Shown in pieces: positions 6,991 to 51,369 of a stretch of DNA of 55,113 bases. A program made the translations under genes and the position numbers. The notes under the pieces were generated by a model. The model ran no database searches. It was not told the DNA's origin and worked only from the letters and a program-made list of their open reading frames with translations. Within the stretch, counting starts at the first letter, position 1. Each line of letters opens with the position of its first letter. The stretch comes from an uncultured Collinsella sp. (GTDB lineage Bacteria > Actinomycetota > Coriobacteriia > Coriobacteriales > Coriobacteriaceae), in assembly GCA_934630855.1 (NCBI GenBank), contig CAKTWW010000009.1, positions 1 through 55,113 of the forward strand, in the 5' to 3' direction.

Positions 6991-7099
6991 GGCCCTTCGA
7001 CCTTTGCTCGCTACTGCGGACAGTCCTGGCTCGCACGGAGGCCACATTAAGTGGCCTCCGGCTCGTGCGGAACTTGTATCGAGCAAAGGTCGAAGGCCC
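6991..7099 (-). repeat. Nested palindrome, copy A (core on minus strand)
   Basis: Outer arms 6991-7010 and 7080-7099 are complementary over 20 bases with one mismatch (CCTTCGACCTTTGCTCG type). At the centre (about 7021-7072) lies the conserved core, read on the minus strand as TTCCGCACGAGCC, stem GGAGGCCAC / loop TTAAT / stem GTGGCCTCC, then GTGCGAGCCAGGACTGTCCG. The core is identical to copy D over about 50 bases; the arms are not. Confidence 0.9.
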
Positions 7100-7105
7100 T
7101 GCAGT

Positions 7106-7239
7106 TATGAGGTCTGACATGACATGTTTGCCACGGTAGAGGCCGCTGTACTGCTGAGTAGGGCCAGATGGACCCGCGCCGTGGAAAGGTCTTATCTGAT
7201 ATTGAAACATGAGCTTTTTTGTAGTCGAAACGAGACCGA
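7106..7239. other. Spacer between nested palindromes A and B
   Basis: This 134-base stretch between the two palindromes in the leuC-leuD gap holds no convincing reading frame, terminator or promoter. It contains CATGACATG but nothing I can name. Confidence 0.4.
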
Positions 7240-7345
7240 GGGATTTGATATTTGCTTGCGTTGAGTTCCGCACGAGCCAGAGAGCACTTAATGTGCTCTC
7301 CGTGCGAGCAGGACTGTCCGAATAAGCAAGTAAATATCAAATCCC
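7240..7345 (+). repeat. Nested palindrome, copy B
   Basis: Outer arms 7240-7259 (GGGATTTGATATTTGCTTGC) and 7326-7345 pair over 20 bases with one mismatch. The core at 7266-7320 is TTCCGCACGAGCC, stem AGAGAGCAC / TTAAT / GTGCTCTCC, GTGCGAGCAGGACTGTCCG. Stem bases differ from copy A on both sides, so pairing is kept. It ends 30 bases before the leuD start. Confidence 0.9.
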
Positions 7346-7374
7346 CCGCATTCCATGTTTGAACGGAGAACGAT

Positions 7375-24617: not shown

Positions 24618-24683
24618 CGAGGGTGGATAATCTCCCGTTTTTGGTCTGCTTTCCGTCCAAAAACGGGAGATTATCCACCCTCG
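24618..24683. repeat. Perfect 27-bp inverted repeat between convergent genes
   Basis: CGAGGGTGGATAATCTCCCG-TTTTTGG (24618-24644) is exactly complementary to 24657-24683 across a 12-base loop. It lies between the hydrolase and GntR genes and probably ends transcription from both sides. Confidence 0.9.
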
Positions 24684-28140: not shown

Positions 28141-28209
28141 AAGTTGCGGTGAAATAGTTCTTGTTTTTGCTGGCTGAAGCCCCAGGCAGGAACTATTCCA
28201 CCGCAACTT
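28141..28209 (+). repeat. 69-bp GTTGCGGTGGAATAG palindrome, copy 1
   Basis: Arms of 23 bases (28141-28163 and 28187-28209) match with two differences around a 23-base loop that includes CTGAAGCCCCAGG. The same arms, with a different 23-base loop, are at 33816-33884. No reading frame is supported. Confidence 0.9.
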
Positions 28210-29688: not shown

Positions 29689-29801
29689 GGATTCTCCCCT
29701 CGACCGGTACCCGCGCGAAGGCCGGGCGCATTTCCTTCTGTCCTCATGCTAAGGACGAACGCTCGCCCGTTGTTGCGCAACATTGCCGGACTTCTTGCCT
29801 C

Positions 29802-29945
29802 GGAAACCGCATCCCAGTTTTGTCCTTCAAGGTGGGACACAGTTTCCGGAAGAGGCTTGCTTGGGAAACTGTGTCCCAGTTTGAGTGCGGATTCCGGGAT
29901 ATGGTTTCCGGAACAGGCCTGTTTGGGAAACTGCGACCCGGAACC
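29802..29945 (+). repeat. 62-bp hairpin array 2
   Basis: Complete 46-bp hairpins start at 29802 and 29864, with a half unit at 29926: again exactly 62 apart. The first is nearly identical to the first unit of array 1 (including the shared middle TTTTGTCCTTCAAGG), in the same orientation. Lies upstream of the zinc-ribbon gene. Confidence 0.92.
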
Positions 29946-29961
29946 CTTCTGCCGGATTGCT

Positions 29962-33801: not shown

Positions 33802-33815
33802 TCACGTTCCCTCAT

Positions 33816-33884
33816 CAGTTGCGGTGGAATAGTTCCTGTTTAAGGCCTCTGAAGGCCCAAGCAGGAACTATTCCACCGCAACTT
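33816..33884 (+). repeat. 69-bp GTTGCGGTGGAATAG palindrome, copy 2
   Basis: Perfect 22-base arms (33817-33838 and 33862-33883) around a 23-base loop with GGCCTCTGAAGGCC. It follows the MFS stop by 15 bases and ends in ACTTATTTTG, so may end that transcript. Confidence 0.9.
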
Positions 33885-33954
33885 ATTTTGGGGAAGAGGA
33901 TGCAAGCCGGGCATACAATGGATGTCGTTGTGTTGAGCTTACCGGGAGGTTGCT

Positions 33955-37842: not shown

Positions 37843-38065
37843 GGCGTCGCTCAACGGAAACCCTGGCTGCCCCAAAGTCAACACAGGTCGCGCCGCCAGA
37901 GGCCGGGCGCAAGCTTTTCGTAGATTCCGCACGAGCCGAAGAGCACTTAATGTGCTCTTCGTGCGAGCCCAGGACCTGACCGAGCGAAAAGCTTGCGCCC
38001 GGCCTCTGGCGGCGCGACCGAGATGGTGGAATTGTGTGCAGCCAGGGTTTCCGTTGACCGACGCC
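37843..38065 (+). repeat. Nested palindrome, copy C (three nested layers)
   Basis: Outer arms of 28 bases (37843-37870 / 38038-38065) have one mismatch; middle arms of 35 bases (37886-37920 / 37985-38019) are perfect; the core is at 37924-37979 (TTCCGCACGAGCC, stem GAAGAGCAC / TTAAT / GTGCTCTTC, GTGCGAGCCCAGGACC). The right outer arm contains TTGACC, the -35 of the rplJ promoter. Confidence 0.92.
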
Positions 38066-40596: not shown

Positions 40597-40827
40597 GGAA
40601 AGTGCGTCCCGCTATTTGGTTGAATTCTGGGATGCGCTTTCCGGTTGGGGCCCCTAGCGGAAAGTACATCCCGGAATGCTGGTTCAAACTGGGATGCAGT
40701 TTCCCCGACGGGGCTGTTCCGGAAAGTGCGACCCGGAATATCGGCTCAGAATGGGATGCGGTTCCTAAACAGGGCTCAAGCGAAAGCTGCATCCCAGTTC
40801 GAGGCCTCAAAACGGGATGCAGTTTCC
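40597..40827 (+). repeat. 62-bp hairpin array 3
   Basis: Four 46-47-bp hairpins start at 40597, 40659, 40721 and 40781 (periods 62, 62, 60). Arms are GGAAAGTGCG-TCCC type and GGGATGCAGTTTCC; middles differ. The 14-16-base spacers centre on GGGGC or GGGGCCCC. Lies between the galU terminator and the rpoB promoter. Confidence 0.92.
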
Positions 40828-40989
40828 GCCTGATTAACCCTCACCGCCATTCCGCCATTCAGCGGCTCGCATCAGCAGTCTCGTTCACAGAAAATATATG
40901 AACACCTGTTCGATGCACCTATATCTACCTGCATCTTTTCTGTCGAAAATCTTTGCTACTCCAAAAACTCAATCGCGTCAAGGCTTTTC

Positions 40990-41017: not shown

Positions 41018-41090
41018 ATTAGGTTGCGATAACTGGCGAAGCTATGCCTCGCCAACCCACCGAGCATTTCCGTGAAGGAGGAAAAACCTG

Positions 41091-44582
<3,492 letters not shown>

Positions 44583-44588
44583 TTGACT

Positions 44589-49067
<4,479 letters not shown>

Positions 49068-50887: not shown

Positions 50888-51020
50888 TTTTCGGAAGTAT
50901 GCGGCAAATTCCCGAATGCCCGACCACACCCGATATGCCCAAGCCATCTACCTGCGGGTTTGTTATCGAAAAACCCCGATGTGCTCGGCAAGTCCAAAAT
51001 TTGCCGCATACTTCCGAAAA
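50888..51020. repeat. Long inverted repeat with 87-base centre
   Basis: TTTTCGGAAGTATGCGGCAA-ATT (50888-50910) is exactly complementary to 50998-51020 (23 bp). The centre continues as a degenerate inverted repeat: CCGACCACACCCGA on the left echoes CCGAGCACATCGGG on the complementary strand of the right. No reading frame is supported. Confidence 0.85.
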
Positions 51021-51122: not shown

Positions 51123-51145
51123 AGCGTTGCCCCGACGAGTACGTC

Positions 51146-51284
51146 GGATTCCCGGACCGGGCGGCACAGGGGTTAAGTTTGTCGCGAGTTCCGCACGAGC
51201 CGGAGGCCACTTAATGTGGCCTCCGTGCGAGCCAGGACTGTAGAGCAGCAAACTTAACCCCTGTGCCGCCCTGCCCGGGAATCC
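51146..51284 (+). repeat. Nested palindrome, copy D
   Basis: Arms of 36 bases (51146-51181 / 51249-51284) pair with two mismatches (GGATTCCCGG... and ...CAGGGGTTAAGTTTG). The core (51188-51241) is TTCCGCACGAGCC, stem GGAGGCCAC / TTAAT / GTGGCCTCC, GTGCGAGCCAGGACTGT, identical to the reverse complement of copy A. Confidence 0.92.
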
Positions 51285-51369
51285 GCCCCCGCGCACAGCA
51301 GGGGATTCCACTTTGTGTAGGCTTTGCGGAAATGTGCCTATTTTAGGATACGCCCGGCGGCGTGGTCTG

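Follow-up and report, generated by a model that had tools for sequence, protein, structure and literature searches.

A dispersed palindromic element of Coriobacteriales with a constant tip and concertedly variable arms

Four copies of a hairpin in one Collinsella contig

Four copies of a long hairpin are distributed over the window, i.e., the whole stretch of 55,113 nt that was analysed (Table 1). Copies A and B are paired head-out in the interval between two leucine genes, of which leuC was assigned by its NCBIfam cut-off and leuD is the best NCBIfam match, 5 bits below the cut-off of that model. Copy C has an aminotransferase gene on one side and, on the other, the promoter-like site (judged by eye) of a gene that is presumably rplJ, as named from its sequence, while copy D resembles a copy (L036) in genome G015. 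A covariance model of the element (R1) matched copies A-D at E-values of 3e-30 to 4e-27; four weaker matches (E 4e-5 to 9e-3) were opposite-strand readings of the same palindromes, and the model found no fifth copy in the window.

Table 1. Positions of the four copies in the window, with their cores and arms.
Copy	Position	Strand	Core	Arms	Setting
A	6991..7099	minus	7023-7072	6991-7014 and 7076-7099	between leuC and leuD
B	7237..7348	plus	7266-7314	7237-7259 and 7326-7348	immediately upstream of leuD
C	37843..38065	plus	37925-37975	inner 37886-37920 and 37985-38019; outer 37843-37882 and 38026-38065	two-tier hairpin
D	51145..51285	plus	51189-51238	51145-51181 and 51249-51285	intergenic, toward the right end of the window

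An earlier reading of this DNA, made without database searches (hereafter the sequence-only reading), had described four sites with a shared core at the centre of a palindrome, and all four cores, of about 50 nt, lie where it placed them. The arms are complementary over 24 nt (92%) in copy A, 23 nt (91%) in copy B, and 37 nt (95%) in copy D, and in copy C over 35 nt (100%) in the inner and 40 nt (85%) in the outer tier. Arm alignment scores of copies A-D range from 17 to 35, compared with a maximum of 11 among 300 shuffles per copy. The same reading held the arms to be unrelated between copies; they do differ by locus, but the 6-18 nt beside the core recur in several forms, which include GGTCGATCGCGAG, ATACAAG, and TCGTAGA.

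The core is composed of TTCCGCACGAGCC, a nine-pair covarying stem, CTTAATG, the second stem strand, GTGCGAGC, 0-3 nt, and AGGAC, and its outer ends are TTCC...AGGAC in all four copies of the window. At some loci of relatives it takes an alternative version, GCACGCAAAG...CGTCTTGCGC, and in other taxa the core loops are shorter (e.g., CCAGTGG). The covariation of the core stem noticed in the window recurs in a set of 44 copies, where A-U and G-C stand at 22:22 at one pair and double changes occur at 16 of the 27 predicted pairs.

As a unit, the element is a long hairpin with a strongly conserved, asymmetric core at its tip. Next comes a well-paired helix, roughly 20-40 bp long and unconstrained in sequence, and many copies have another internal loop, partly conserved, outside this free helix. 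Further, some words are enriched relative to shuffles 5' of the arms (GCAAG, 21 versus 3; TCAAC, 19 versus 2) and 3' of the arms (CGGAC, 28 versus 6; CAGGT, 25 versus 6), and thus the free helix seems to be enclosed by a second, semi-conserved module. Among 18 copies in genome G205 and 9 copies in genome G102, conservation is 1.0 immediately next to the core and has dropped to about 0.4 at a distance of 40-50 nt. Sequence common to the 18 G205 copies falls off about 17-20 nt beyond the core, and the outer arms are paired and, for the most part, unique; an inner-arm stretch of 15 nt (TGCTCACCAAGCGAG) is common to 17 of the 18, most of which share little farther out, and the same T.T inner-arm mismatch is kept in 17 of the 18. 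Nesting was also encountered, in that one G102 copy appears to be inserted in the tip of another.

Distribution and genomic context of the family

The covariance model, built from 44 copies, matched 128 of 247 genomes and 38 of 99 genera sampled from the GTDB order Coriobacteriales, which holds Collinsella, in a scan that scored at most 16 candidates per genome. In a sample of the phylum, 23 of 396 genomes were matched and all 23 fall inside the order. A search with the exact core yielded matches in 20 of 39 relatives, or in 17 after genomes G016, G022, and G026 were dropped as chance, their sole matches (L015, L016, and L020) being without the TTCC and AGGAC sides. Among the matches listed (80 of at least 120 stretches), the exact core was found in Collinsella, Gordonibacter, Adlercreutzia, Slackia, Rubneribacter, Ellagibacter, Paraeggerthella, Parvibacter, Olsenella, and Tractidigestivibacter. 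A total of 14 carriers from other genera contained 2-35 model matches per genome, the lower-scoring of which are perhaps related variants, and the sample assembled here amounts to 92 locus clusters. These copies represent an old family of non-coding palindromic elements dispersed in Coriobacteriales. No printed description of it was found in searches of listings of open-access papers.

The single match to a viral contig is without arms, and another candidate member (L257) was rejected as a chance match with no arms. A typical copy (L289) was found on a contig labelled Corynebacterium, which is probably mis-binned. An Ellagibacter copy (L266) and a copy in a Collinsella-group genome (L006) are shared together with the adjacent permease gene, a region that was perhaps transferred between lineages.

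Neighbour protein clusters common to more than one family group numbered 9 of 185, one of the 9 being from this permease region of L266 and L006, where group labels were assigned by hand and 29 of 241 copies had none, and no recurrent neighbouring gene or enzyme stood out among the 185. Such rarely shared neighbours are more in keeping with a dispersed element than with a leader RNA. Nor was a common rule apparent among the matches listed when the core strand was compared with the sign of GC skew, taken from the nearest of coarse sampled windows: 6 of 11 copies were co-directional in G015, 8 of 23 in G102, and 2 of 10 in G096.

In 51 of 76 locus clusters, the 3' side of the core is directed toward a stop codon, with a median distance of 63 nt (quartiles 51-99); for the 5' side the figure is 38 of 76, with genes called by a home-made codon score rather than by a gene finder. 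The placement of the 3' side is what would be expected if cores inserted into the loops of pre-existing hairpins, e.g., intrinsic terminators. Such an origin is nevertheless hardly probable, as a terminator T-tract (at least 5 T in the 9 nt after the hairpin) followed 0 of 259 copies on the core strand and 7.7% on the opposite strand, and arm sequence is absent at two empty sites described below. On the former count, the element was also rejected as an intrinsic terminator in its own right.

Pairing, divergence, and alleles of the arms

Left and right arms pair (score of at least 12) in 94.5% of 217 distinct copies, compared with 3% of 400 swapped left/right pairs. The arms are thus locus-specific, and these frequencies contradict the two outcomes that the sequence-only reading had named as fatal to it, namely that most cores elsewhere would be without arms, or that the arms would be identical everywhere, as in an ordinary MITE. 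Arm scores of at least 14 were reached by 259 of 273 copies; in these, the paired stretch is 30 nt long at the median and 92% identical on average, with 50 copies perfect. Within loci, own pairing exceeded swapped pairing at 11 of 12 loci (at one of the 11 barely), in a comparison whose allele pairs, like those used for rates below, are not independent.

To relate arm change to flank change, 450 allele pairs were kept and 187 whole-allele swaps were excluded, including 13 of 43 pairs at 1-3% flank divergence. At mean flank divergences of 0.6, 2.2, 4.9, 7.8, and 12.6% (6, 30, 112, 208, and 94 pairs, respectively), arms had diverged by 1.9, 5.1, 9.5, 10.7, and 12.2%, against a flank baseline that includes coding ends and is hence lowered. 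Arms therefore change 2-3 times faster than flanks where flank divergence is below 6%, and the excess fades above that value (10.7% versus 7.8%, then 12.2% versus 12.6%). The change is concerted: double changes per pair-site in the first three bins were 0.0056, 0.037, and 0.077, whereas independent change at the flank rate would yield 0.00003, 0.0005, and 0.0024. Double arm changes exceed this expectation 5- to about 160-fold, although use of the arm's own rate would give an expectation that is several-fold higher, and from the second divergence bin upward they outnumber single changes. Between nearest alleles of at least 90% identity (83 pairs), 105 single and 30 double changes were counted; since single changes are common, mismatches in the arms are tolerated, yet many are mirrored.

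Relative to 4-fold sites, and with swaps included, arm divergence was higher at three loci (0.268 versus 0.206, 0.374 versus 0.085, and 0.210 versus 0.025) and lower at the HAD gene locus (0.022 versus 0.203, 3 copies), using a search pattern that missed copies with two extra C before AGGAC and that covered 3 copies at HAD and 5 at rplJ. Double changes cluster mildly, with 113 adjacent, a count that matches the highest of 500 shuffles (91 ± 7), a degree of clustering that does not provide evidence of long conversion tracts.

Alleles at single loci illustrate how the arms change. At least two unrelated arm types (that of L125 and that of L124 and L140), plus variants, occur at the HAD gene locus between the same outer flanks; one allele (L142) has its two arms drawn from two allele types, and in three others (L138, L141, and L143) the element is lost except for the tip of the 3' arm. 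Alleles of the HPr gene locus include one with no change (L173), one with a change in one arm (L156), and one with the same change in both arms (L159), along with an allele whose arms are mixed from two alleles (L158) and a deletion allele (L157). In another HPr allele (L162), the core is inverted between unchanged arms when compared with 13 copies with the same flanks, a spacer inversion of the kind described for template-switch mutation. This is the sole clear inversion, as the other flipped pairs examined (top of 116) trace back to a locus where two copies are neighbours. Arm alleles of the L052 locus differ at many mirrored positions. Recombinant and deleted alleles thus exist in the family, and recombination (L142 and L158) may have imported part of the arm divergence.

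The element is interpreted here, with a probability of about 0.58, as a REPIN- or MITE-like dispersed hairpin in which the core is constrained by selection and the arms are homogenised by fold-back template switching. The replicating strand would fold at the core, and the polymerase would switch template inside the hairpin and copy one arm onto the other. Such switching could correct arm mismatches in either direction, and it would raise the mutation rate of the arms and occasionally flip the core. The core would remain constant through selection, as a putative binding site or mobility signal, and a core held constant while arms are rewritten would leave the arms unrelated between copies. The pattern of mirrored change matches template switching, the process by which the arms would have been homogenised. 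Selection for pairing alone predicts arms that change more slowly than neutral DNA, and homogenisation with a raised mutation rate therefore fits better. Fold-back copying had been proposed in the sequence-only reading; on the arms, their concerted, fast change and the one core inversion fit it, whereas the duplication of local flank that was to accompany arrival is not borne out (see below). Against template switching stand the single clear inversion, recombination between alleles, the coding ends in the flank baseline, the loss of the excess above 6% flank divergence, and the mildness of the clustering.

A structured RNA, in which RNA of the core strand takes up a rod-like fold, pairing is selected, and the helix drifts by compensatory mutation, is possible but doubtful. 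The core stem and internal loops covary, the core is conserved across families, and G.T mismatches exceed A.C mismatches over all arm positions (81.9 versus 31.2; one copy per cluster, 90 clusters). Flank substitutions (936 C/T versus 1185 G/A) indicate no C-to-T bias that would match and explain this excess. RNA folding as a force on the outer arms, as had been suggested by unsplit counts (G.T 178 versus A.C 82, or 79 versus 30 with one copy per cluster), was rejected when a split by distance confined the excess to positions less than 20 nt from the core (about 58 versus 8, by subtraction); at positions at least 20 nt from the core, the values are 23.8 and 23.0. Equality of G.T and A.C in the outer arms speaks against RNA folding as the force there, whereas the core-adjacent part of the arms may be under selection as a folded single strand, or its mismatches, such as the T.T of the G205 copies, may be shared by descent. 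Also at odds with a structured RNA are arms that at low divergence diverge faster, not slower, than flanks, a gene context and transcription direction that are not constant, and the lack of an Rfam family: at the gathering threshold the window gave one tRNA only, and 10 loci searched at E 0.1 gave a single microRNA match of 33 bits versus a threshold of 137. More generally, compensatory changes alone are no proof of RNA function. A screen for structured RNAs in the human microbiome lists 250 palindromic candidates, some of them gut-bacterial, and one Collinsella candidate upstream of L7/L12 (PMC8040213). The present element may be among these candidates.

A further reading, which is rather unlikely, would make the core a programmed fold-back signal. 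In this case, a folded single strand would be selected, in three families, and a U-turn of replication would rewrite both arms such that pairing is kept while the arms are diversified. If true, the element would constitute a self-correcting, self-diversifying hairpin module.

Arrival of copies and relation to known elements

At two loci, a copy is present in G102 and absent in the same-genus genomes G106 and G249. In the sequence-only reading, the arms were, as the likelier of two options, an inverted duplication of local flank made upon arrival of the core, and strains lacking the element were to be inspected for one pre-existing arm. At these two empty sites, G102 arms share 7-9 nt with the approximately 600 nt around them, which is the chance level (shuffle means of 7.2-8.5). 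One G102 insertion is flanked on both sides by GCATGA, which may be a target-site duplication but is also a start-codon context. In G205, the locus near 36.3 kb of contig 119 and the one near 46 kb are 96% identical over 135 bp that include the arms, where a mirrored change sets the two apart on both sides. The 46-kb locus is present in G250, which has a different sequence at the 36.3-kb locus. Copies can therefore arise with arms, since a unit of about 135 bp comprising core and arms arrived at the new G205 locus, and neither this result nor the empty sites support arms duplicated from local flank.

Insertion of the core alone, with arms made on arrival as an inverted duplication of local flank, would account for the outer arms of G205, which are mostly unique and paired beyond the point about 17-20 nt outside the core where shared sequence ends. 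It also predicts that alleles without the element at the HAD and HPr loci retain one arm tip, as they do. However, three carriers (L136, L137, and L139) share an upstream insert with the element-less HAD alleles, which makes deletion likelier there, and with the two empty sites and the G205 copy that carried its arms along, this origin is improbable. That most G205 copies share little beyond the inner arm is nevertheless compatible with arms made upon arrival in other cases.

The element might instead belong to a REP/REPIN system with a dedicated RAYT (Y1) transposase as its mover (PMC3116915; see also PMC8266576 and PMC2817692). It resembles REPINs (PMC3116915) in being a short, dispersed, extragenic hairpin with conserved modules and a paired spacer that changes by compensation. 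A linked transposase had been proposed as something to look for, and a Y1 domain (PF01797) was indeed detected in 8 of the 13 carriers tested and in none of 5 non-carriers; it is missing from the other 5 carriers, namely G205, G102, G077, and G215, with 19-35 model matches each, and G046. Moreover, conservation is concentrated in the tip, with a free outer helix, and not in two outer inverted REPs, and 2-35 model matches per genome (14 carriers) are found here, not hundreds. A system of this kind is therefore improbable. A Y1 transposase is not needed for upkeep of the element, with a historic role as mover being possible.

Template-switch (quasipalindrome) mutation is the closest process to that favoured here. 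Its outcomes at hairpins include homogenisation of arms, inversion of the spacer, and double changes (PMC8604942; PMC8794818), and these are described there for single, unrelated hairpins, whereas in the present case the process would recur at many loci (92 clusters) of one dispersed family whose core is constant. Repetitive or double hairpin elements of mitochondria are likewise dispersed, and some are thought to be mobile; two sponge types have conserved stems and differing loops (PMC2800124), the reverse of the present arrangement.

With a constant tip and concertedly variable arms, the element is unusual among dispersed hairpins. MITEs are small, non-coding, dispersed palindromes. No terminal inverted repeat is common to all copies of the present family, and nearly every locus has arms of its own. 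Work on template switching at hairpins usually concerns single loci, and a near-identical core at many loci in many sequenced gut strains would allow its homogenisation rate, direction, and tract length to be measured in nature. In this sense, the element offers a record, kept in nature, of how hairpins may be rewritten when DNA is copied.

Other features were noticed alongside the family. An open frame of 2629 codons on the minus strand of the window (41019-48908) has no NCBIfam match and may be spurious, there being two long frames on the other strand. About 125 nt to the left of copy D lies a separate long hairpin without the core (50888-51020; 41-nt arms, 83%), and a perfect 27-bp inverted repeat with a 12-nt loop occupies 24618-24683. 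A repeated hairpin with GTTGCGGTG(G/A)AATAG in its arms is found at 28141-28209 and 33814-33886, and also upstream of the HPr gene in L157. Inverted repeats at 29801-29946 and 40627-40833 have similar GGAAAC/TGGGAC/GGGATGCAGTTTCC words and are maybe another dispersed repeat. In G102, other dispersed repeats of the GTCATCCTGAGC...GAAGGATC type, with many matches, adjoin a copy at about 9400-9620 of L416.
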